Assembly (NCBI GenBank): GCA_905618895.1
Contig: CAJQTA010000001.1
Coordinates: 1-64,000 of the forward strand
Length of the DNA: 64,000 nt
Origin: an uncultured Candidatus Pelagibacter sp.
GTDB taxonomy: Bacteria; Pseudomonadota; Alphaproteobacteria; Pelagibacterales; Pelagibacteraceae
Direction of reading: 5' to 3'
Within the stretch, counting starts at the first letter, position 1, and each line of letters begins with the position of its first letter. The notes under the pieces are model-generated. The model did not search any database. It saw nothing but the letters and a program-made list of their open reading frames with translations, and was not told the DNA's origin. Positions 16,674 through 41,233 of the stretch are shown in pieces. A program made the translations under genes and the position numbers.

Positions 16674-17114
16674 TTGAACAAAAAAACTGTTGAAATTTGT
16701 TATGTTATTTTGCTACCAGTATTATACGATAAAAAATACCTTATGACTAATAACGCTGCAGAATATAAAACAGAAAAATATCTTCAAGAATTTTATGATC
16801 TTAGCAATACAACAGATATAAAAGGTTTCTATTATGAAACCAGATTGCATTCTGTAATAGTTTTAGAAATTTCCCTAGCAAGTTTTAATAAAAATCATCC
16901 TGTAAGTTTTGAATTTCTCTGTGAAACCATTCCAAAGAAATTGGGGAAAAGAACAACCATACAAACTATTTTAAACGAAGGTTTAAGAAAAGGTTATTTT
17001 ATAAAGACAATAAGTGAAAAAGATAAAAGAATAAAATTTTATACTCTAGAAAAAGATTCACTTAGTGTTATTGAAAAATGGTGGACTGATCGAAAAGAAT
17101 TTTCCACTACATGA
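16674..17114 (+). CDS. Winged-HTH (MarR-like) regulator
   Basis: KRTTIQTILNEGLRKGYFIKTISEKDKRIKFYTLEKDSLSVIEKWW. Confidence 0.55.
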   Translation: MNKKTVEICYVILLPVLYDKKYLMTNNAAEYKTEKYLQEFYDLSNTTDIKGFYYETRLHSVIVLEISLASFNKNHPVSFEFLCETIPKKLGKRTTIQTILNEGLRKGYFIKTISEKDKRIKFYTLEKDSLSVIEKWWTDRKEFSTT

Positions 17115-25783: not shown

Positions 25784-26773
25784 ATGAAAAATATCCCAAG
25801 TGTTTCCAATCAATTAGATAAAGAAAAACTTTTTGAAATTATTAATAAAAACTTTAGTAAATTAGCACCAGCATATTATACACTAATTACTACTTGGCTT
25901 GTTGATGCTTACAAAGTTTATAAGGGTATCGATAAGTTTATAATTTTAATTTATCTGATTAATAAAGACTTTATTTTCTATAGAAAAAATGGACTAATGG
26001 TTGATTATGATACATTTTATAAAGATAAATCATTAGAAATTCCAAATATTAACATCATTGATATTTCAAAAGATCTTCGAATTCCTAGAGAAAGTGTAAG
26101 AAGAAAGATAGAAATATTAAAAAAACAGGGTGTAATCAAAAAAAAGTGGAAAAAAAAAATCTTTGTAGATAGATCGGCATTTATAACAGCTAAAGCTGAT
26201 AAAACTCTAAAAAATCTTAGTATTTTAATTTTTAATTTTAGTGAAATATTAAACGATAAAGATAAAACTGATGAACCTTTTGGTGTAGATGAAATTTCAA
26301 AATCAATTAAAGAAAGCTTTTCTTTTTGTTGGTATCATTTTTATAAGTTTTTATTCACTTTTACTAATAATTGGAAAACATATACCAAAACTAAAGATTT
26401 AGAAACAGTATGTGTAGCATTCATTGTGCTAATTAATACTGTTCAAAATAAAATTTTTAAAAATAAAAATTTAAATAGAGAAAAATATCTTAAAGAATTA
26501 AAAAAATCTAATCATATTGGTATTAATGCATTTTCTATTGCTGATATATCAGGAATTCCGAGAGCAACGGTTGTTAGAAAATTAAAATTTTTAGTTAACA
26601 ATAATTTTTTGATAATTAATGAAAAAAAACTTTATACTTTTGGTTTAAGCACACAAAGTAAACAATACAAAGTGGTTTCTAAGTTACAGGATAAAAATAT
26701 GGTTTCTTTAAGTAATTTATTATACAGAATCTCTAATCAAATTAAAGCTAATCCAAAAAATAAATTAATATAG
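25784..26773 (+). CDS. Putative regulator with two winged-HTH domains
   Basis: LRIPRESVRRKIEILKKQGVIKKKW and SGIPRATVVRKLKFLVNNNFLI. Confidence 0.65.
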   Translation: MKNIPSVSNQLDKEKLFEIINKNFSKLAPAYYTLITTWLVDAYKVYKGIDKFIILIYLINKDFIFYRKNGLMVDYDTFYKDKSLEIPNINIIDISKDLRIPRESVRRKIEILKKQGVIKKKWKKKIFVDRSAFITAKADKTLKNLSILIFNFSEILNDKDKTDEPFGVDEISKSIKESFSFCWYHFYKFLFTFTNNWKTYTKTKDLETVCVAFIVLINTVQNKIFKNKNLNREKYLKELKKSNHIGINAFSIADISGIPRATVVRKLKFLVNNNFLIINEKKLYTFGLSTQSKQYKVVSKLQDKNMVSLSNLLYRISNQIKANPKNKLI

Positions 26774-29212: not shown

Positions 29213-30445
29213 TCACCCAATTATCGCACCAACGTTAAATATAGGCGCATACATAGCTAACATTAGACCACCAATAGTGATCCCCATAAATACGATCATT
29301 ATGGGCTCAATTAAGCTTGCAAGGTTGGCAACAGCCACATCAAATTCTTCTTCGTAGTATATGGCAATAGAGCCAAACATTTCATCCAAGCTTCCTGTTT
29401 GTTCACCCACTGCTATTAATTGACTAAAGGTTGTTGGGAATATTTTTTCTTTATTAAACAAATCCGTTAAACTTTCTCCTGAAAAAACTCCCTTCTTAAT
29501 TCTTTCTAATGCCTCAACAACAATTACATTGTCAGTTACTGATTTTGCAATATCTATACTCTCAATTAAATCAACCCCTGCTTGGTTAAGGTTTCCTAAA
29601 ACTAAGGATACTTTTGCTAAAATTGATTTTTGAATTAAATTTCCAAAAATAGGAAGCTTCATCATAATACGATGCCAATTTTTTCTCACTTCATAATTTT
29701 TTTTAATTAAAAATTTAAAACCAAATACAAAAGATATAATAAACATAAGTAAAAAAATTCCACCAGAAGAACGAACAAATTCACTCATAGACATAATAAC
29801 AGCTGTTGGTGTTGGTAGATCATCTGCCATACCCATGCCTTCATACATATCTACAAAAGTTGGTACAACATTCATTAACATAAAAACAGTTACTAAAATT
29901 GCAACTGAAAATAAAACACCTGGATAAAATAAAGCACTTTTAATTTGTGATTTAATTTTTTCTCTTTTCTCTAAATTGATTACTATTTTTTGTAAAAAAG
30001 TATCAAGTTTACCACTAGCCTCCCCTGCTTTGATTAAATTAACAACAACTGTATCAAAAATTTTCGAGTGTTTTTCAAAACATTTTGACAATGCATTTCC
30101 GGATTCTAAATCTTTTTTTATAGTTGAAATAACTTTTTTCATGGGAGGTCTTGATGTTTGACCTTCTAACATATCAAGAGTATTTAGAACAGGCAGTCCA
30201 GCTCTAAGCATAGTAGCAAACTGTTTACAAAAAATTAAAATTTCTTGTGGCTTTATTCCAGTGCCAAAACTAAAAGAAGTTTTTTCTTTTTTAATAACAA
30301 CTTTCTTTTTTTTAGCTTCCTTTAATTTTGTGATAATAACTTTTTTGTCTTTAAGTTTATGAGCAGCCTCTGCATTATTTAGGGCTTCAATTTCTCCCTC
30401 AACATATTTACCAAGAGCTATTCCTTTATATTCAAAATTTAACAT
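29213..30445 (-). CDS. pilC: Type IV pilus inner-membrane platform protein PilC/MshG
   Basis: T2SSF domains; IFCKQFATMLRAGLPVLNTLDMLE, KAGEASGKLDTFLQKI. Confidence 0.93.
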   Translation of the reverse strand: MLNFEYKGIALGKYVEGEIEALNNAEAAHKLKDKKVIITKLKEAKKKKVVIKKEKTSFSFGTGIKPQEILIFCKQFATMLRAGLPVLNTLDMLEGQTSRPPMKKVISTIKKDLESGNALSKCFEKHSKIFDTVVVNLIKAGEASGKLDTFLQKIVINLEKREKIKSQIKSALFYPGVLFSVAILVTVFMLMNVVPTFVDMYEGMGMADDLPTPTAVIMSMSEFVRSSGGIFLLMFIISFVFGFKFLIKKNYEVRKNWHRIMMKLPIFGNLIQKSILAKVSLVLGNLNQAGVDLIESIDIAKSVTDNVIVVEALERIKKGVFSGESLTDLFNKEKIFPTTFSQLIAVGEQTGSLDEMFGSIAIYYEEEFDVAVANLASLIEPIMIVFMGITIGGLMLAMYAPIFNVGAIIG

Positions 30446-32154
30446 TAGCTAGATTGTAAAACTCTTTCATATTCTGCAAATGAAAGATCACCACTTAACA
30501 ACATTTCTTGCCCCATATCCTGCATGGTCCTAAAACCATTTTTTTTAGCTATCGCATTTAATTCATTTTGTTGAAGGTTTGATAAAATCCCTGCTTTTAA
30601 TTCACTTTCAATTTCAAGAATTTCATAAATTCCCATTCTACCCTTGTAGCCAGAACCACCACATTCATCACAACCACCACCCTTATAAATTTTAGCTCTT
30701 GCTGATTGTTCTGGTAAAAATCCAATAGAATTTAGGAGTTTAGGAGTAATATTTTCATCAATTATACGGCATTCTAAGCATGTTTTTCGAGCTAAACGTT
30801 GTGCCATAATCAATGTTAAAGCTGCAGATATTAAATAGTTTGGGGTTCCCATATTTAATAAACGAGTAATAGAGCTTGGAGCATCATTAGTGTGAAGCGT
30901 ACTAAATACTAAGTGACCAGTTAAAGCAGCTTTCAAAGCGATATCTACTGTTGCCTTATCCCTGATCTCTCCAACCAAGATCACCTCCGGATCTTGACGC
31001 AAGAAAGATCTTAGTGCCTCCTCAAAAGTGTAACCAATTGCCTCTTTAATTTGTACCTGGCCAATTCCTTCCATTTCATATTCAACAGGATCCTCTGCTG
31101 TTAAAATGTTCATACCTGGCTTATTAATATGTTTTAAAACACTATAAAGAGTTGTTGTTTTACCACTCCCTGTTGGACCAGTAACAAGCACCATCCCTTG
31201 AGGTGATGAAATAGCTTTAGTTAATTTTTCTAAATCTTTAGCTTCAAAGCCAAGGTCAGCTAAAGCTTTGTCTCCTGCATCTTTATTTAATATACGCATT
31301 ACAACACGTTCTTTATTTTTTGTTGGTAAAACCGAAACCCTTAAATCAATTTCTTTTGTATCAGATTTAAATGTTGAAGCACCATCTTGAGGAACTCTTC
31401 GTTCTGCTATATCTAATTTGCTAATTATCTTAACTCTTGCAATAACCGCATCATAGTTTTCATGTAAAAACTTTGAATATTTATCTATCACTTTTAAAAT
31501 GCCATCTACTCTAAATCGTGTTTGTGCACTATTTCTAAAAGATTCTATATGAATATCACTTGCTCCCATATTGATAGCTTCAGTAATTAGTTTATTTCCA
31601 AAAACAATTACTTCTGAACCAACCTCAACTAACTCATCATTAGTTTTTTCAAGCTTTTCAACTTTTACATTTGCATCAGATATTTTTTTTGTTTCATTTT
31701 TTGTAAATCTTTCAATAAAAGAATTTATATTGCTTATGGATGCAGCATATAATTCTGGCTCCATCTTTGTCATTGTTTTTAAGTTTTTCATCAAACTTAA
31801 TTTTGATGCATCTGCTATTGCAATTTTTAAAACTCCACTGCCCATTTCAAATGGAACAAGTGAATTATCTTGAATATATCTGATATCAATAATTTTTTTA
31901 ATCTTTGGATCTATTACAGTTTTTTTTAAATCTATAATATCCATAGAATAGTTTGTTGATAAAATTTTTACTATCTTATCTTCATCAGTAAAATTTAATT
32001 CAAAAGCAGTTTCTAATTTTGATTTTCCTATTTCAGCGCTTGTATTATTAATCTTAGTCATTTGCTCAGTTGAAATGGATGAGCTCTCCATTAGCATATT
32101 TAAAATATTTTGTTCACTAGTGGCATCTAATTTAGTTTTGCTCATCTTATTCAA
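30445..32154 (-). CDS. pilB: Pilus extension ATPase PilB/MshE
   Basis: VTGPTGSGKTTTLYSVL, LRQDPEVILVGEIRD, CLECR..CDECGGSGYKGRMGIYE. Confidence 0.95.
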   Translation of the reverse strand: MNKMSKTKLDATSEQNILNMLMESSSISTEQMTKINNTSAEIGKSKLETAFELNFTDEDKIVKILSTNYSMDIIDLKKTVIDPKIKKIIDIRYIQDNSLVPFEMGSGVLKIAIADASKLSLMKNLKTMTKMEPELYAASISNINSFIERFTKNETKKISDANVKVEKLEKTNDELVEVGSEVIVFGNKLITEAINMGASDIHIESFRNSAQTRFRVDGILKVIDKYSKFLHENYDAVIARVKIISKLDIAERRVPQDGASTFKSDTKEIDLRVSVLPTKNKERVVMRILNKDAGDKALADLGFEAKDLEKLTKAISSPQGMVLVTGPTGSGKTTTLYSVLKHINKPGMNILTAEDPVEYEMEGIGQVQIKEAIGYTFEEALRSFLRQDPEVILVGEIRDKATVDIALKAALTGHLVFSTLHTNDAPSSITRLLNMGTPNYLISAALTLIMAQRLARKTCLECRIIDENITPKLLNSIGFLPEQSARAKIYKGGGCDECGGSGYKGRMGIYEILEIESELKAGILSNLQQNELNAIAKKNGFRTMQDMGQEMLLSGDLSFAEYERVLQSS

Positions 32155-33700
32155 TCACTCTAGGTGCAATAAAGATTAATAATTCGACTAATTCATCACT
32201 ATTATTTTTGCTTTTAAATAAGTTTCCAAATACCGGTATTTTGCTAACCCCTGGTGTTTTACTATTCGTATTGTTTGTGGTGTTCTTTTTAATACCACCA
32301 ATTACTACAATATCTCCATCACTTACTAAAAGTTTTGTGACAATTGAATTAGTTTTAATTCCTGGTTCGTCAGATCCAGCAACTGTTACCGGAGAGTCGT
32401 TATTGACCTTTATATCTAACAATACGTTGCCATCTCCTATTATGCTTGGGGTAACTGTTAAAGATAGTGCAGCTTCTTTGAATTCAGTAGTTGTTGTTCC
32501 ATCTGCTGTTGTTTGATAGGCAATTTGTGTTCCTTGAGTGATAGTTGCTTCCTGGTTATTTAATGTAAACACACTTGGTTGAGAAAGTGTTTTACTTAAA
32601 CCTAAAGACTCCAATGCCTCAATTTCAACTTTAAGAGCACGTGCTCCAATTTGTCGAAGTATTCCAATTCCACTTGTTCCAGAAATTCCTTGATTTGAAA
32701 TAGTTCCTGCCGCAGACCCTAAAGCTATATCTCCAGCAGTTGCTGCTGCATTTCCTCCAGATGTCATTCCTGAAATAGTAGTTGTTCCCTTAGCGCCTCT
32801 TTCACTTACACTCATCGCTCCAACTCTAGCACCTAATGCTTTTGCAAAAGTAGAAGTTGCATCAATTATAAATGCTTCAATTAAAACTTGTTTAGTTTTT
32901 ACATCAATTTCTCTTATAACTGCATCGATAGTATCGAGGTCTGGTTCGTGACCTCTAACAATTATTGATCTAGTAGTATCCTCTACTGTAATTGAAAGGT
33001 TAGACATAGTACTAGCACCCTCTGCACCTTGTGTTGCAAATAAAGCTTCTAGTGTAGTCTTTGCTTGAGTAGGACTAATATAATATAATCTAAATATTTC
33101 AGCTAAGATCGGCTCAACAGACTCTTCTAATTGAATTTTTTTCTTTAATACTTCCGCTCTTGCAGATTTTGCAGTTTCTTGTGCAGTTAATTTTTCAGGA
33201 GTATGAACTCTTATAATTCCATTAACAACATCAACATCAGCCACTAAAGTTTTCATATCTAACAAAGTTTGAAAAGCAACATCCCAACCAACATTATAAA
33301 TTTTAGCATTTACTGTGCCACTTACTTCATCCCCTACTAAAATATTTATATCTGCTATATCTGCCATCATTGACATCACATATTTAAAATCTAAGCCTTG
33401 AAAATTAATATTAACCATTTGTTTAAGGTGAGGGTATTCATCTGAAATATAGACATAATTTTTAACATTTTCAGTTGTTATCGTTTTACGTTTATCTTCT
33501 CTTGGTATGCTTGTGTCGTAAGGTTTAGGACCATCAATAACCTTCTTGTCCATATCGGCACGACCATCAACAATAATCTTAGCTGTATCAATTAAAGGTT
33601 TATCACCATGAACTGATTTTGGTTTTTGTCCAGGTGTTACACAAGATTGTAATAGAACGATAAATGATAGTGCTATTAAAATTTTAAAATATTTATTCAT
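32147..33700 (-). CDS. Secretin PilQ/MshL-like (lipoprotein signal)
   Basis: LLQSCVTP lipobox; secretin signature VPFGNLF-like KIPVFGNLFKSKNNSDELVELLIFIAPRVIE. Confidence 0.92.
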   Translation of the reverse strand: MNKYFKILIALSFIVLLQSCVTPGQKPKSVHGDKPLIDTAKIIVDGRADMDKKVIDGPKPYDTSIPREDKRKTITTENVKNYVYISDEYPHLKQMVNINFQGLDFKYVMSMMADIADINILVGDEVSGTVNAKIYNVGWDVAFQTLLDMKTLVADVDVVNGIIRVHTPEKLTAQETAKSARAEVLKKKIQLEESVEPILAEIFRLYYISPTQAKTTLEALFATQGAEGASTMSNLSITVEDTTRSIIVRGHEPDLDTIDAVIREIDVKTKQVLIEAFIIDATSTFAKALGARVGAMSVSERGAKGTTTISGMTSGGNAAATAGDIALGSAAGTISNQGISGTSGIGILRQIGARALKVEIEALESLGLSKTLSQPSVFTLNNQEATITQGTQIAYQTTADGTTTTEFKEAALSLTVTPSIIGDGNVLLDIKVNNDSPVTVAGSDEPGIKTNSIVTKLLVSDGDIVVIGGIKKNTTNNTNSKTPGVSKIPVFGNLFKSKNNSDELVELLIFIAPRVIE

Positions 33701-33703
33701 TTA

Positions 33704-34126
33704 CTATCCATCACTCGGTTTAATTATATTATTCATATAAACTTCAAAAAGATTATTTGCTCCATCTTGAACAATTACAAAATCAGAATAAATATTTCTT
33801 ATCATCGTGGTATCTGTAATCGCTTGATCTTCTTCATATTTATACGCTCCACCATCAGCAGCTGAAAAAACTGCTATTTGTTTGTTTTCACCTATAATTG
33901 TGCCAACCAATCTCATATTATTTAAAAGCCCATTATTTGAGCTTACCTCCGTATCTGTTCCACTTGCTTGATTTGTAGAACCAACTCCTCCTGCAAAAGG
34001 ATCAATTGCTGGCAACTCTTCATCATCTAAAGAAGAATGATCATCTGCTTTTAAATTTAACATTTGGAACTGACAAAGCATAATTGTCATTAAAAATATT
34101 AATATTTTTTTATTATTTATATTCAT
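33704..34126 (-). CDS. PilP-like pilus assembly protein
   Basis: DPFAGG...MRLVGTIIGENKQIAVFSAADGGAYKYEEDQAI; operon position. Confidence 0.7.
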   Translation of the reverse strand: MNINNKKILIFLMTIMLCQFQMLNLKADDHSSLDDEELPAIDPFAGGVGSTNQASGTDTEVSSNNGLLNNMRLVGTIIGENKQIAVFSAADGGAYKYEEDQAITDTTMIRNIYSDFVIVQDGANNLFEVYMNNIIKPSDG

Positions 34127-34775
34127 TTGGTAACCCCACAATTGAAACAGTACCTTTTGATAGAATTTGTCCTTGAATTTCAGCTATCGTTGTAATTTCC
34201 TCCTTATCAAAATTAATAACTTTTTGAGATTTTGATAAAGCTCTTCTAAATTTAAGATAGCTTAAAAAATTTCCTTGTATCTCATACTCAACAGGAATTT
34301 TATAATACATCACATTTTGCCCGTCTTGATTTTCTGTTGTTTGTTCTGTGTTTTGATCTTGCCCATCTCCAGTAACAGCTTTTGGTTTACCTTTTTTAAG
34401 ATTAGTTATTGACAAACCATTGATTAACGCAAATTTGCTTATATTTTGATAAAGATCTTCAACTTCTTTTTTACTATGAAAAAGTTTACTATTTTTATCA
34501 TAGTCAGGTTCTAATTTTTTAACGGTTGCTGTTAAAGTACCAATATTATTTTTAAACTCTCCAATCTTTATTTTGTTTTCATTCATCAAACTAATTTGCT
34601 CTTCTTGTTGTTTTAATATCGGTGATACAAAAGCATAATAACCTATCAAAAAAATTAATACAGCAGCAAAACCAACACCAAATTTGATTAGAGTTTTTTT
34701 ATCACCCAAACCACCACTTTTAAGTTTTGCAAATATATCATTTAGATCTAAATCTTTTAAACTTGCTAAATCCAT
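34113..34775 (-). CDS. PilO-like pilus assembly protein
   Basis: Single N-term TM then coiled coil and PilO-like fold; operon position. Confidence 0.75.
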   Translation of the reverse strand: MDLASLKDLDLNDIFAKLKSGGLGDKKTLIKFGVGFAAVLIFLIGYYAFVSPILKQQEEQISLMNENKIKIGEFKNNIGTLTATVKKLEPDYDKNSKLFHSKKEVEDLYQNISKFALINGLSITNLKKGKPKAVTGDGQDQNTEQTTENQDGQNVMYYKIPVEYEIQGNFLSYLKFRRALSKSQKVINFDKEEITTIAEIQGQILSKGTVSIVGLPNEYK

Positions 34776-37078
34776 TATATCAATTTCAATTTACAATTAA
34801 TTGTAAATCCCTTTTTATTATTATTACCTGATGCTTGATCCCCAGTTTGATTTTTCATCGCAGCCAATGAGGCTTGTTCAATTAATGATTTTGCATTTAA
34901 ATTTGAAATAAAATTTAAAATATCTTGATCAGAAAAAGCAACCCCTTCAATAATTAAACTATCTTTTCCATCAAAAGTCATTTTCGTAAATTGTACTCTT
35001 TGAGGAACGCTCCTAGTTACTTGTGCTAATGATCTATAAGATCTTGCTTGATTTGAATTAACTAATTTTCCAAGATCCAATGCAAGCTGCATTTCTTTTC
35101 TTTTTTTTGCTAATTTTGAAAATTGAATATTCATTTTATCAAATTCCATTTGCACTTGATCAAATTCTATTAATTTATCTTTATTGCTACTAATCTGGAA
35201 AAATGAAAAGACTGTTAATATCAAATAAATACCTGCAATCGCACCTGCTGCACCTTTAAAAGCAAAACCAGATAAGAACTTTACCTTATTTTGCTGACGG
35301 ACAGCGTCTCTATTAGGTAATAAGTTTATATTTTTAACAGCAGTTACAAACTTATAATAACCAAATACATCTAATTTTCTGTAAGCTAAACCAAGTACTG
35401 ATGATAATGGTGATTGATTATCACCAGATATTTTTTCACTATTATAAGAAGGTATGCTTATACTTTGCAGGGGATCAAAGTTAATAAAATTTGTTGTTGG
35501 TAAATTCTTTTTAAATACCGGAAGTATAAATGAAATATTTTTTAGGCTAGAGACTACTTGAATAGATGTAATTTTATTTTCATATTTACTTTCATAATCG
35601 GTAATTGCTTGTTTAACTTGCATCGCATATCTTCTGATAACTGCGTCTGCCTCAGTTGAAAGTTGTTCACTTTTAATATCCTGAATATGTTCTTTTTCTT
35701 GAGGTCTTAAAAATATATCAGTAATTACAGGAATATTATTATGAATAATCATTACATAGTTTTCATCTGTACCTAATTCTAAAATAGCTGAATTTCCTTT
35801 ATTTGTAATAGATTTAAATTTTGTATTATCGTGTGCATTCTTTAAAGTAAAACAACGAACATCCATAATAACCGGATTAAGTCCAGCTTTTTTAGCAATA
35901 GATGAATAAGCATTTACATCAGCTAATTTTGAAGCAACAAATAAAATCTCCATTGTATTAGTTTTAGAATTTCTATTTATGATTTGATGAAAAATTGAAT
36001 AATCATTTAAGTTATCTGTAAGTTGAACTAGGTTGTCCCAAAGAGAATCTGTTTCAATCGCTTTCTGCAATTCATCATCTGTCATTAGTGGGCTGGTAAC
36101 TACTCTAATAATTGCACTAGTTACTGGAATCGATAATGCGACATTTTTTGAAGTAATTTTTGCATTAGACAAAGCTAATTTAATTTCTTCAGCCAAGTAA
36201 TCTTTGTGTTCTAAAAGGTTTTCACTGATCTTTTCTTGATCCAATAGACGATAAGAATATTTATCTAATATCCATTTTTCATCTTTATCTTGAGAGACTT
36301 GAGCAACTCTAATTACTTCTCTTGTCATATCTAAACCGGCTATTTCTTCACCAGCAACACTTAATTTACTAACTTTAGATTGAAAGAAGTTTTGAAAAAC
36401 TTTTTTTAACTTATTTTCTTTTGTTTTTTGATTTTTATCTTCTCCAGCTACCTCTTCACTGGTTGAGTTATTATTTTTGGATTTAGAAAATTTAAAATTT
36501 TTTAACTTTTCCAACATACTAATTGCTACGCCTTTTGTAGGTTCTTGCATAGCTACTTTGGATACCTCTGAAATAGGAGCTGCGCTAACAACATCATTAT
36601 TTTCTTTGGTTGTTGGAATAACTGAATCATTTTTGGGATTATTCTCCTGATTTTGCTCAATAACTTGTTCTTTAACTGGAATATTCTCATTTTTCTCTAA
36701 TTGAAGCTCATCAAACCACTTTTCCAATATTGGTATTGCTTCTTCAAGATTAGGTGTTCCTGATGAAGAGATCTTTTGTTTACCATCAATATATAGTCTT
36801 CCGACCCAATTTTTTGATTTTAACTCACCCTTATACTTGTCTTGTCTTATATATATATGTAAACGGCCATCTTTCTTGTGAATTACCTCGTGCTCACTCT
36901 TTTTATCAACTTTAGATTGTATTTCATCTTGATTGCCAATTATTTGTACATTATTAGGAGTATTTTCACCTTGAAGTTGATTTTCTTCAATGGTGCTTTT
37001 TTTTTCAGTATTTTTTTCCAACTGACTGTCTAAATTATCATTATTTTTTTCATCAATCATAATTTTATAAAAATACAC
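34775..37078 (-). CDS. PilM-PilN fusion with N-terminal extension
   Basis: VAGEEIAGLDMTREVIRVAQVSQ.. (PilM) and NINLLPNRDAVRQQNKVKFLSGFAFKGAAGAIAGIYL (PilN); 230-aa N-terminal extension. Confidence 0.8.
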   Translation of the reverse strand: MYFYKIMIDEKNNDNLDSQLEKNTEKKSTIEENQLQGENTPNNVQIIGNQDEIQSKVDKKSEHEVIHKKDGRLHIYIRQDKYKGELKSKNWVGRLYIDGKQKISSSGTPNLEEAIPILEKWFDELQLEKNENIPVKEQVIEQNQENNPKNDSVIPTTKENNDVVSAAPISEVSKVAMQEPTKGVAISMLEKLKNFKFSKSKNNNSTSEEVAGEDKNQKTKENKLKKVFQNFFQSKVSKLSVAGEEIAGLDMTREVIRVAQVSQDKDEKWILDKYSYRLLDQEKISENLLEHKDYLAEEIKLALSNAKITSKNVALSIPVTSAIIRVVTSPLMTDDELQKAIETDSLWDNLVQLTDNLNDYSIFHQIINRNSKTNTMEILFVASKLADVNAYSSIAKKAGLNPVIMDVRCFTLKNAHDNTKFKSITNKGNSAILELGTDENYVMIIHNNIPVITDIFLRPQEKEHIQDIKSEQLSTEADAVIRRYAMQVKQAITDYESKYENKITSIQVVSSLKNISFILPVFKKNLPTTNFINFDPLQSISIPSYNSEKISGDNQSPLSSVLGLAYRKLDVFGYYKFVTAVKNINLLPNRDAVRQQNKVKFLSGFAFKGAAGAIAGIYLILTVFSFFQISSNKDKLIEFDQVQMEFDKMNIQFSKLAKKRKEMQLALDLGKLVNSNQARSYRSLAQVTRSVPQRVQFTKMTFDGKDSLIIEGVAFSDQDILNFISNLNAKSLIEQASLAAMKNQTGDQASGNNNKKGFTINCKLKLI

Positions 37079-37084
37079 TTTTTT

Positions 37085-37418
37085 TCTAACACAAAAAAAC
37101 GAATCTCTAACACATCTCTAACACATCTCTAACACAAACTATAAAATTATCTATAATTTAATTATAATTTAGTGCTCAAATCAGGCTATTTATAAAAATA
37201 ATGTCAAAATGATCAATAAAATCAACATTTTTTATATAAGATGAAAATAAAGTAATTTTTTTAGTAAATTTTGTTGATTCTAACACAAAATAAATATTAA
37301 AATTGTGTTAGAGTTAAATTATTTTATAATATATTAAAATGTATGAAAAATATTGCATAAATCAACACTTTTAACAATTTAACAAATTTGTGTTAGAGTA
37401 ATCAGTATTTGTGTTAGA
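37085..37418. promoter_or_regulatory. Array of eight TCTAACACA(AA) motifs in both orientations upstream of pilMN
   Basis: Forward 37085, 37104, 37115, 37126, 37279; reverse 37303, 37387, 37408. Confidence 0.75.
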
Positions 37419-37429
37419 CTTTTTTGGCT

Positions 37430-40400
37430 TTAATAATTTTCTTTCCAACTTTCAAGTTGAACTGCTCCTGAAATTTCTTGTGCCTTAGATTTACCTGTAA
37501 TTAGGTTATCTTTTGCTGTAAATCCATCAATATTATTTTTAGCCTCTCCAGCTAGACCAATATATAGGTTATCACCCTGTTTTACAACTTTTGAGAGTAC
37601 TCCTTTACCCATATTCACATTAAGTAATGATTCACCACACTTTGTGTCATAGGCAGTTAAATAAGCATTACCTACCCCACATTTGTTATTTGTAGCACTT
37701 GGCTCGTATAACGGGAAATATACCCTATCTCTATCTACAGTTGGTTCAGAAGTTAATTTTTTTGCATTATCAAGGTCAACATACCAACCTAAATCAGTCC
37801 CAGATGGACATGTAGGTGCTGTTTTGCACATTGAAACATTACCGGTTGGATTAACCTCTACAAAATTTGGAAAGTTCACATCTTTTATACCATAAATTCT
37901 ATTTTGTATCTGACTTGATTGTGCTTGAAGCTTTTGGGTGTTTCCAGTTCCAAAATATAACCATAAATTGTTATCACTGTTGATTGTAACCTCTGGTCTT
38001 GTAAAAATATTCCTTCCATTTGCAGAAGTAGCTTCAGCTGTAAACAAAGTAGTTTGATGTATTTCTTTATCTGATGCATCGGAACGTATAATTGAATTAT
38101 AGGTAGAGCTATTTTGATCAGTATCCATAACAAAGTCCTCTGTTAAATCAATTTTAGTTATTTTACCCTCTAAGTCTGTTGCATAAATCAATGCTCCATT
38201 ATAATTTGCTTTATTAGTGCCATCTGCGGTAATGATACTTAAATCTGCAGGTAAAGAATTAACTACATCATTTTCCATTCTTGTAAATTTAACTGTACCA
38301 GAGCAAGAAATTCCTTGATCACATGGCCAAGGAGTATCAAATGTTATTTTTGAAATTCTAGATACAGTTCCATTGACAAGATAATCTATTATATGACCAA
38401 CAGGTGGATCAAACTCAACTATATGTGGCATTTCACCGTTTGCTGAATCATGTTTTATATTAGGATCCAAATGTGTGTGAACCTCAAGTACAGTATTGTT
38501 ATTAGTCAACTGTCCTTCCGCAGGAACCCTACTATACAAAGTGTAAAATCTATTGTCAGTGATTACATCTTTATCTTCTATATCAATTACTTTTAATACT
38601 TTTCCTTCATTTTCTAAATCTATTACAAATACAGCAGAGCCAACATTAGGATTAACAGCGCCATTGTATCCTCCACCAAAAACTGCAACCCATCTATCCT
38701 TACCATCAACTTTAATTCTAATAATTCTTGGAGTTGACCAGGTTTCTCCTAACTTGCTATAATCATATTCTGGAGCAACATTTCCAGCTACATAACCAAA
38801 TTCAAATTTACTCGCATTGACATCCCAATGTTCGACAAATTTATTAGTTTCATCATTGTTAAAAGCAAATAAGTGAGTAGGACTACTTGGATCTGTAACA
38901 TCAAGTGCAAACATACCTTTTCCACCTGCACCAAGCCCACTTAAAAGAATTGTTCGCCATCTTGGATTGTCTACGCCATCATTTGGAGTATCATCAAAAT
39001 AAATATCTTTAGCGACTGGAGAACCATCTATACCATAAATAGCATTTGTCGAATTAGCCTTGCTAGATGGGATCTTTTCGAGGACACCTAAAACATTTGG
39101 TGGAATATATCCCCATAACTCTTCACCATCTGATGCTTTAAATGCATGAAGAATACCATTATTGGCTCCAGCATAAATAATTTCTGCTCTATTAGCACAT
39201 GGTCCCCCACAAGTTGCTCCACTTTTAAAATTATTATAATTATTCTGCAATCTATAATATGAGTCTTTTTTCTGAGAATTAGCAGTATTATCATCAACTG
39301 CTGATGCTTCTGGATTTGCAACTACAATTAAATCAGAATGATAAATATCTGCAAGCTTATGTATAGACTCTGTTGTGTTATTATCTGCATCTTGATCATA
39401 AGTATCTATACCTCTAATAAAGTTTATTAAATTATCAACTTCGGTATCTGTTGGTGTTATATTAGGAAACATTTTTGATTTTAAAAGATCACTGTTAGCT
39501 GTTGTAAAATTATTTAAGCCAGTACCAATTTCTGGGGTCCATATATTTCTTGTAGATGAGGTTTTAGAATTTAATTTATCTGCAGCATCCCACAGAGCTG
39601 AACCAAAAGTACCATCAGTATTTAATTGATACTTTTTCAAACTTCCTTTCCATTGTTTGTCTGTTTCGTATTCAAATGTCGATTGATAGACAAAATTATT
39701 CCTACTTACATCTGACATTACTGCAGGAGTAGTAAAGGTTAGTCGACCTGAGATAGCTTGTTTAATTGCATCTGTTATTTTTGCAAGCAGTTCTGTTTCA
39801 TTTTCTGCATAAAGAGGGCTTGTAGTTCCTCCAGCAGTTGCTAGTGCAGAATAATTACTATTAGATCCACCTAAAGCATAACCTACAGCAAAAGTTTGAA
39901 TATTATCCACCCGCCTGATTTGATTAGCAACAGTAACTACTTCGTGGTTTGATGACCAATATCCATCACTTATTACTATTAAAAAATTTAAAGAACAGGT
40001 TAAATCCCAATTATCAACCACGCCACTTCTAAAATAATCTCTTGCAGTTCTCATAGCTCTAGCAAGGTTGGTTCCACCATTTGCACTAATACCATCTACA
40101 TTTGAATAAATGAATCGAGCTCCATTATTTGTAATTCCAACTCTTATATTGGCACTAGAACTCCATTCCATTAAACCAAAATTTGCTCCAGCTGTTAGAT
40201 TGGTATCAGAAACTATTTGCTTAATTACTTTCTTAGCACTAGACAATTTTGTTCCTGATTTTCCTCCAAATGTTGCTGTTTGAGTTAAACTAGTGTTAAA
40301 TTTTCTAGCAGTCTGATTAGTAAAATCTGCAACATAGATATTATCACTACTATCTATAAACATTCCATAAGGATTATAAAATGCAGACGTTCTAGAAAAT

Positions 40401-41233
40401 GATCCTTGTTTTGCTTGGTAAACTAAAGATGAATTAAATTTTTGTATTCTGTCATTATCTCGTTCTAAGACATATATATTTCCACTACTATCATAAGCTG
40501 CGTCTACGGGTCTATTAAAAGATCCATTCGCTGAAGATTGTGAAGTGCCAGCTGCGTTAACATAGGTAAGATTATTTCCAGATACTGTAAATTCAAAAAC
40601 TTTATGGTTATGATAAGATGCTACTAGCAGTCTATTTCCAGCACTATTTAAAGACATACCTATGGATAAATTGACACCACCAGCAACATTTTGATAGCCA
40701 GTTCGAGCTAAGTTACCTGTCGCAAGTGTTTCAATTGTATTGCCATAATGTCCAACAAAAACATAATTACTATTAACAGCAATTCCCCATGGTCTAAGGT
40801 AAGCAGTGAGACCACTACCAATACATTGACCAGTTAAACTAAGCTTTAAAACTCTATTGCCTTGCAGGTCTGCTAAATAAACTTGATCGTTAAAAATTAC
40901 AAATTGCCTTGCATATTTCCATTGATTACAACCAGATCCATAACCTCCAAAACTTCTAAGATATGTTCCTGCGCTATCAAAAACCTTAATTCTATTATTT
41001 GAATACTCCAAAACATAAACATTTCCTGAACTATCTGCTGCAACGTCTATCGGATATTGTGTTACTGTGTTACTGACTAATGTATCCCTCATACTTCCAG
41101 ACTTATCCAACATAATTAAAATGTTTGCTGGAATATCTGTGGTTCCAGTCCCTGGCGGAGGACTCTTAGCTTGTGCTTGAAAGCTAAATAAAAATAAGAA
41201 TAAAAAGATGATTACTGTTGAGAGTCTAGCCAT
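37430..41233 (-). CDS. pilY1: PilY1-like pilus tip adhesin with vWA and NHL-type propeller
   Basis: MLDKSGSM MIDAS, NHL-like SSGNVYVLEYSNNRIKVFDSAGTYLRSFGG, PilY1 C-terminal region IIYAGANNGILHAFKASDGEELWGYIPPN. Confidence 0.9.
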   Translation of the reverse strand: MARLSTVIIFLFLFLFSFQAQAKSPPPGTGTTDIPANILIMLDKSGSMRDTLVSNTVTQYPIDVAADSSGNVYVLEYSNNRIKVFDSAGTYLRSFGGYGSGCNQWKYARQFVIFNDQVYLADLQGNRVLKLSLTGQCIGSGLTAYLRPWGIAVNSNYVFVGHYGNTIETLATGNLARTGYQNVAGGVNLSIGMSLNSAGNRLLVASYHNHKVFEFTVSGNNLTYVNAAGTSQSSANGSFNRPVDAAYDSSGNIYVLERDNDRIQKFNSSLVYQAKQGSFSRTSAFYNPYGMFIDSSDNIYVADFTNQTARKFNTSLTQTATFGGKSGTKLSSAKKVIKQIVSDTNLTAGANFGLMEWSSSANIRVGITNNGARFIYSNVDGISANGGTNLARAMRTARDYFRSGVVDNWDLTCSLNFLIVISDGYWSSNHEVVTVANQIRRVDNIQTFAVGYALGGSNSNYSALATAGGTTSPLYAENETELLAKITDAIKQAISGRLTFTTPAVMSDVSRNNFVYQSTFEYETDKQWKGSLKKYQLNTDGTFGSALWDAADKLNSKTSSTRNIWTPEIGTGLNNFTTANSDLLKSKMFPNITPTDTEVDNLINFIRGIDTYDQDADNNTTESIHKLADIYHSDLIVVANPEASAVDDNTANSQKKDSYYRLQNNYNNFKSGATCGGPCANRAEIIYAGANNGILHAFKASDGEELWGYIPPNVLGVLEKIPSSKANSTNAIYGIDGSPVAKDIYFDDTPNDGVDNPRWRTILLSGLGAGGKGMFALDVTDPSSPTHLFAFNNDETNKFVEHWDVNASKFEFGYVAGNVAPEYDYSKLGETWSTPRIIRIKVDGKDRWVAVFGGGYNGAVNPNVGSAVFVIDLENEGKVLKVIDIEDKDVITDNRFYTLYSRVPAEGQLTNNNTVLEVHTHLDPNIKHDSANGEMPHIVEFDPPVGHIIDYLVNGTVSRISKITFDTPWPCDQGISCSGTVKFTRMENDVVNSLPADLSIITADGTNKANYNGALIYATDLEGKITKIDLTEDFVMDTDQNSSTYNSIIRSDASDKEIHQTTLFTAEATSANGRNIFTRPEVTINSDNNLWLYFGTGNTQKLQAQSSQIQNRIYGIKDVNFPNFVEVNPTGNVSMCKTAPTCPSGTDLGWYVDLDNAKKLTSEPTVDRDRVYFPLYEPSATNNKCGVGNAYLTAYDTKCGESLLNVNMGKGVLSKVVKQGDNLYIGLAGEAKNNIDGFTAKDNLITGKSKAQEISGAVQLESWKENY

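Follow-up and report, generated by a model that had tools for sequence, protein, structure and literature searches.

A conserved, helically phased site array upstream of the pilus gene pilMN in SAR11 bacteria and an integrase arm-type-like domain as its candidate reader

The stretch of DNA analysed, 64,000 nucleotides long and referred to here as the window, is part of a genome of SAR11 (Pelagibacter), the most abundant bacteria of the ocean, and its nearest relatives are Pelagibacteraceae (SAR11) single-cell and metagenome genomes. The surroundings of the feature described below form a type IV pilus cluster including T2SSE ATPases, a platform protein, a secretin, PilO, a PilM-PilN fusion, a PilY1-like protein and minor-pilin-type genes. 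The fusion gene pilMN (34775-37078, minus strand; Pfam PilM_2 1.5e-16, PilN 7.9e-12) encodes 767 aa from a GTG or about 761 aa from the likely start ATG at 37060, and a hydrophobic stretch, GFAFKGAAGAIAGIYLILTVF, was read from the sequence between its PilM and PilN parts. Its upstream neighbour in the window lineage is a pilY1-like gene (37430-41233, minus strand; T4P_PilY1 1.2e-18), while the next gene of the operon is pilO (34113-34775, minus strand; Pfam and neighbourhood reading), with a secretin (32147-33700), a T2SSE ATPase (30445-32154) and T2SSF (29213-30445) as further members. As in type IVa pili, PilM_2 and PilN domains are encoded ahead of pilO and of secretin, ATPase and platform genes, but here the two are fused in one gene, and a further N-terminal domain of DNA-binding type is attached by long variable linkers.

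The gap between pilY1 and pilMN holds exactly eight copies of TCTAACACA (37085-37418), which are all the copies in the window, against a mean of 0.67 and a maximum of 3 in 100 dinucleotide shuffles. Five are on the plus strand and three on the minus strand, as the first-pass annotation had claimed in describing eight motifs in both orientations. Its 11-bp and 21-bp spacings were right while several of its start positions were shifted, those given as 37104, 37115 and 37126 being 37106, 37117 and 37128, and those given as 37387 and 37408 being 37388 and 37409 for TTGTGTTAGA. Genome-wide, 13 copies were counted (0.91 Mb examined, about 65% complete), eight of them in the pilMN upstream gap and the other five scattered isolated singles not above chance, and the motif is thus not dense elsewhere.

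All eight sites are exact matches and fall into three clusters. The distal pair (D1) consists of site 1 (GTCTAACACAAA, 37410-37418, minus) and site 2 (CTCTAACACAAA, 37389-37397, minus), 21 bp apart. Site 3 (37304-37312, minus) follows 85 bp from site 2, a spacing conserved at 85-87 bp, and forms the central inverted pair (P1) with site 4 (37279-37287, plus), which lies 25 bp away in the opposite orientation, an inverted spacing conserved at 25/26 bp. The gene-proximal cluster (P2) includes site 5 (37128-37136, plus), its 11-bp tandem copy site 6 (37117-37125, plus; 11-bp spacing in four cases), site 7 (37106-37114, plus) and, 21 bp from site 7 and about 25 bp upstream of the likely start ATG of pilMN, site 8 (37085-37093, plus).

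Other elements were located in the linkers between the site clusters. The element TGTTGATTTTATTGA(T) at 37212-37227 (minus) has an ATCAA core and is conserved in the linkers of relatives, where it occurs mostly once per long linker, and a second copy of the ATCAACA-TTTT element is at 37359-37372 (plus; repeat family D6, a clade-B linker element). The ATCAA core recalls an IHF site and an HU/IHF-family gene is present, but TGTTGATTTTATTGA matches the IHF consensus imperfectly, and no more than an IHF-like resemblance is claimed. Comparison with the relatives' linkers also brought out a weak degenerate counterpart (37172-37187, minus) of the dyad TGACCTAAAATGGTCA (consensus RCCYANNNTGRRCA), which is conserved ahead of the gene-proximal sites in two relatives (L068 and L101) and is possibly an operator for another regulator.

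The full site, derived from 530 sites in 76 distinct arrays, reads CTCTAACACAA, with its central nine bases fixed by the search itself and with flanking preferences for C at -1 (80%), A at +9 (96%) and A at +10 (71%). Adjacent sites in the same orientation were mostly 11, 20-23, 85-87, 116-118, 127-130, 139, 150 or 161 bp apart. Over 788 same-orientation pairs the best period was 10.70 bp (resultant R=0.81), and the phasing still stood at about 1e-7 with each distinct distance counted once. Same-orientation sites, at about n x 10.7 bp, are on one face of the helix across about 330 bp. Inverted pairs were mostly 25/26 or 35/36 bp apart, and along transcription a direct pair was usually followed by an inverted pair and then by a triplet next to the gene. 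Repeats spaced by whole turns and conserved before one gene are what is found in a helically phased operator array, and the earlier prediction of such an operator array with cooperative binding in helical phase is strongly supported by this period across the 76 arrays. An enlarged array over about 575 bp before pilMN was noted in one genome (L177, G182), where single sites are by turns about 90 and 50 bp apart.

Site number and orientation differ between arrays, and those of L183, L185 and L186 include five exact sites in a single orientation and no real inverted copy. This bears on a reading in which the repeats act as RNA, the inverted copies folding the pilMN leader into hairpins of an attenuator, terminator or riboswitch. 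The minus-strand transcript of the window folds with z=-5.45, a strong fold that is owed to the inverted copies; since one-orientation arrays exist, an RNA hairpin is not the common function. With the phasing being that of helical DNA, no Rfam match in the window and no terminator found in the pilMN upstream gap, this reading is extremely unlikely.

An array, taken as at least two TCTAACACA within 2-30 bp, was present in 16 of 101 related genomes and the extra N-terminal domain of PilMN in all 16 of these. The Fisher value of 6e-19 for this co-occurrence overstates independence, as the genomes are related and no correction was made for descent, and the domain search may fall short of full coverage of the 85 array-free genomes. 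Searched with the 63-aa domain core, 73 of 399 Pelagibacter genomes gave matches, one of which was an integrase. Every domain-bearing pilMN locus with at least 700 bp upstream (73/73) had 4-8 exact sites (median 7), while no exact site was found at the pilMN locus for seven short PilMNs (572-583 aa open frames) or for both outgroups. At least three different upstream neighbours occur, namely pilY1, a divergent pilT-like operon and a gene of 430-480 aa, and pilMN keeps its array with each. The linkage of domain and array is strong, and conservation in orthologous loci, which had been put forward as a check, takes the form of an array kept upstream of the long pilMN genes.

An apparent array-less exception, L110, was set aside because the DNA before its pilMN, at the end of a contig, reads as another coding region, which makes a chimeric single-cell contig likely. 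In L082 and L136 the reading frame of the long PilMN breaks past the N-terminal part, giving pieces of 249/566 and 257/565 aa, and the cause is either a sequencing error or a separation of the domain from the pilus parts.

This distribution weighs on two further accounts of the array. The first-pass annotation had also called it iteron-like, and replication iterons or DnaA-like boxes might be suggested by a 9-mer ending in CACA within an AT-rich gap. Confinement of the array to genomes with a long PilMN (16/101), always beside pilMN, leaves the replication-origin sense of that description scarcely credible. The HTH proteins encoded at 16674 and 25784 had been named as possible binders together with the PilMN N-terminal domain, and it is conceivable that the array is bound by one of these or another DNA-binding protein while the PilMN domain has another role, for example in binding a protein. 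Both HTH candidates are encoded in the window and the family of the 25784 protein is present in 12 of the 16 array genomes, yet it is also found in 29 of the 85 array-free genomes, which include its closest relatives (45-55% identity), and the 16674 protein is in only 4 of the 16. Their distribution does not track the array, and binding by such a protein is considered quite unlikely, the more so as the integrase relative of the PilMN domain described below has the same motif type in its flanks. Only the PilMN N-terminal domain, among the candidates examined, tracks the array, and it is retained as the candidate binder. The gene at 25784-26773 encodes an HTH protein with weak TrmB-like and Crp-like matches from a SAR11 paralogous family, without co-distribution with the array.

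The proposed array binder is an N-terminal 63-aa integrase arm-type-like domain of PilMN (36704-36892, minus strand; by homology), flanked by variable linkers that are probably disordered. In the nearest relatives it is mostly 90-98% identical to the window. Between the window and clade B the domain is 90-95% identical, as against 50-52% for the PilM-PilN core and 25-36% for the other N-terminal parts. In this comparison, codons at identical residues have turned over about as much in the domain as in the core, so that the conservation of the domain acts on the protein (purifying selection).

In a tree of 68 PilMN cores, with long outgroup branches that make the root uncertain, the Pelagibacter sequences that lack the domain are placed between two clades that have it, which means that domain and array were gained together twice, or gained once and lost once together. 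The core of the window PilMN belongs to clade A (82% to L182 vs 52% to L094), while in the domain (98% over 55 residues) and in the geometry of the array the window is like clade B. From these sequences, an exchange of domain and array as one module would fit.

The AlphaFold model of the domain, with phage homologues in the alignment, has a four-stranded sheet and a C-terminal helix (pLDDT 90.6). Foldseek comparison of two AlphaFold models of the domain with PDB folds gave no significant match, and weak hits to Pur-alpha, BlaR1 and UFC1 were below significance and not believed. Pfam gave no Arm-DNA-bind or AP2 hit for the PilMN domain at E<=10, and no arm-binding family hit at E<=1 for the SAR11 integrase that carries the homologous domain. 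Across Pfam, PHROGs, NCBIfam and PDB sequence no name was obtained for the domain, with a weak match to phrog_17986 (E 0.0014) only.

Over 76 aa, the window PilMN aligned at 55% with the N-terminus of a tyrosine integrase from SAR11 (E 2.3e-22). Within the Pelagibacter set the domain's most distant relative (G162, L176) forms the N-terminal end of a tyrosine recombinase of 423 aa, and a second integrase with the domain was found in G459 (L220). These two were the integrases found with the domain, and as both are of one element family they are not independent witnesses. Integrases of this kind match Phage_integrase (9.7e-8) and the phrog_1 integrase (1.7e-13), and both genes adjoin tRNA-Leu(caa). 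The N-terminal region is the arm-type DNA-binding domain in many tyrosine integrases, and on sequence comparison the PilMN domain is judged homologous to this region of the SAR11 integrase.

Both related elements include short repeated sites flanking the integrase/att region. The motif CTCTTACACAA, one base off, or close variants of it were present in both non-coding flanks of both integrases, including pairs with 11-bp spacing, and TCTWACACA had two to three exact matches in the flanks vs 0.02 expected; one flank site is an exact TCTAACACA (L176:2313). Two proteins that are otherwise unrelated thus share the domain, and each is accompanied by almost the same DNA word.

Lambda Int and Tn916 Int are integrases with arm-type N-terminal domains of a beta-beta-beta-alpha textbook fold. 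The SAR11 domain resembles these in its predicted beta-sheet and C-terminal helix, in its N-terminal position in the homologous SAR11 integrase and in the sites on both sides of that gene beside a tRNA. It differs in having four strands and a helix by AlphaFold vs the textbook three, in the lack of a significant Pfam or PDB match and, for PilMN, in being reused outside recombination.

The likeness of the motif to the putative arm sites of the SAR11 integrase could also mean that the array is itself an integrase recombination site, for phase-variable inversion or as a remnant att site. PilMN is without a recombinase catalytic domain, arrays differ in number and orientation and are absent wherever the domain is absent, and a tRNA search found none in the window; a recombination site is accordingly very unlikely. 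An origin as a remnant att site, later domesticated, is possible.

Small integrated elements at tRNA-Leu(caa) (L176:1482-3729 and L220:2611-4877) carry the tyrosine integrase, a serine resolvase and lipoprotein-like genes, and some of their small proteins resemble those of phage contigs L187/L191, so that by sequence the element may be a prophage or satellite. Marine phage contigs L187-L191 (IMG/VR; e.g. L190:5983-6333, plus) encode a protein of about 116 aa made up of the same domain and a C-terminal hydrophobic segment, a probable transmembrane segment. Its domain is 69-73% identical to the integrase N-terminus and 53-58% to PilMN, and no site array was found near its gene in L187-L191. Viral contigs yielded no full-length integrase relative, and phage records gave one weak 26% hit. 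Viral contigs L263-L266 with paired motifs were dismissed as chance matches, mostly in coding repeats and without the domain.

Taken together, we propose with a probability of about 0.62 that PilMN took up an integrase arm-type domain and, anchored in the membrane, binds the helically phased array before its own gene, which would most likely be an autoregulatory operator. In the proposed course of events pilMN would have acquired the domain at its N-terminus. With a cytoplasmic PilM and a PilN that spans the inner membrane, the fusion would be a membrane-anchored DNA-binding platform protein of the pilus. Several copies may then bind cooperatively on one helical face of the upstream region of about 330 bp, most likely with autoregulation of the pilMNOPQ operon as the outcome. 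From the pairing of domain and motif in sequence we infer physical binding of the array by the domain, and we further infer membrane-tethered regulation, its sign and its coupling to the state of the pilus.

Repression would be favoured by the position of the proximal triplet next to the start codon and by the known self-repression of integrase genes whose promoters overlap the binding sites, as for KplE1 IntS (PMC2951348), where the promoter overlaps the arm- and core-type sites. No promoter before pilMN was placeable by consensus search, and the choice between repression and activation is for that reason a guess. PilMN would share with the tRNA-associated integrase KplE1 IntS (attL) an arm-type DNA-binding region and arm-type sites placed over the promoter or the 5' region of the gene that encodes it. 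It is unlike IntS in being no recombinase, in the fusion of the domain to a pilus membrane protein and in a long phased array of sites that includes no recognised core sites and no tRNA.

Some known transcription regulators act on promoters from the membrane (ToxR, TfoS and ChiS type; PMC10269533, PMC13316777), and PilMN would resemble them in that a cytoplasmic DNA-binding domain, here assigned by homology, would be carried by a membrane-spanning protein and directed to a promoter. In PilMN, unlike these, the domain is of integrase type and the remainder is the structural pilus platform of actin-like PilM and PilN. The parts, integrase arm sites and membrane-tethered regulators, are of known kinds in a new combination. 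In the literature covered, with subscription journals and preprints outside its scope, neither a pilus protein carrying a DNA-binding domain of integrase type nor the CTCTAACACAA array was found described.

The same architecture could serve mainly to tether the locus to the membrane or pilus pole, for positioning or transertion rather than for transcription. A domain on a membrane machine with long and variable linkers, sites in both orientations that cover the whole gap of about 330 bp, and the phage protein of about 116 aa that joins the same domain to a hydrophobic segment are all consistent with a tether. A tether would not have to lie just upstream of the gene for its binder, yet the array does so in every lineage, and the strict helical phasing and the cluster beside the start codon look operator-like, for which reasons tethering as the main role is thought unlikely.

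For the autoregulatory reading, a wider and rather doubtful extension would have the platform protein act as an integrase-derived, membrane-tethered regulator that senses assembly state through PilM/PilN engagement and signals to its own operon via the helically phased array of about 330 bp; the small marine phage protein that combines the domain with a probable membrane anchor could then be aimed at the host array or at att sites.

SAR11 has few known regulatory sites and is hard to study by genetics, and here a near-invariant DNA word is paired with its likely reader from sequence alone. The CTCTAACACAA array is a marker for the pilus type of roughly one in five Pelagibacter genomes. It points to the reuse of a DNA-binding domain of mobile-element recombinase type in a cell-surface machine and suggests a pilus platform able to address its own promoter directly, so that the pilus machine may itself recognise and regulate pilMN.
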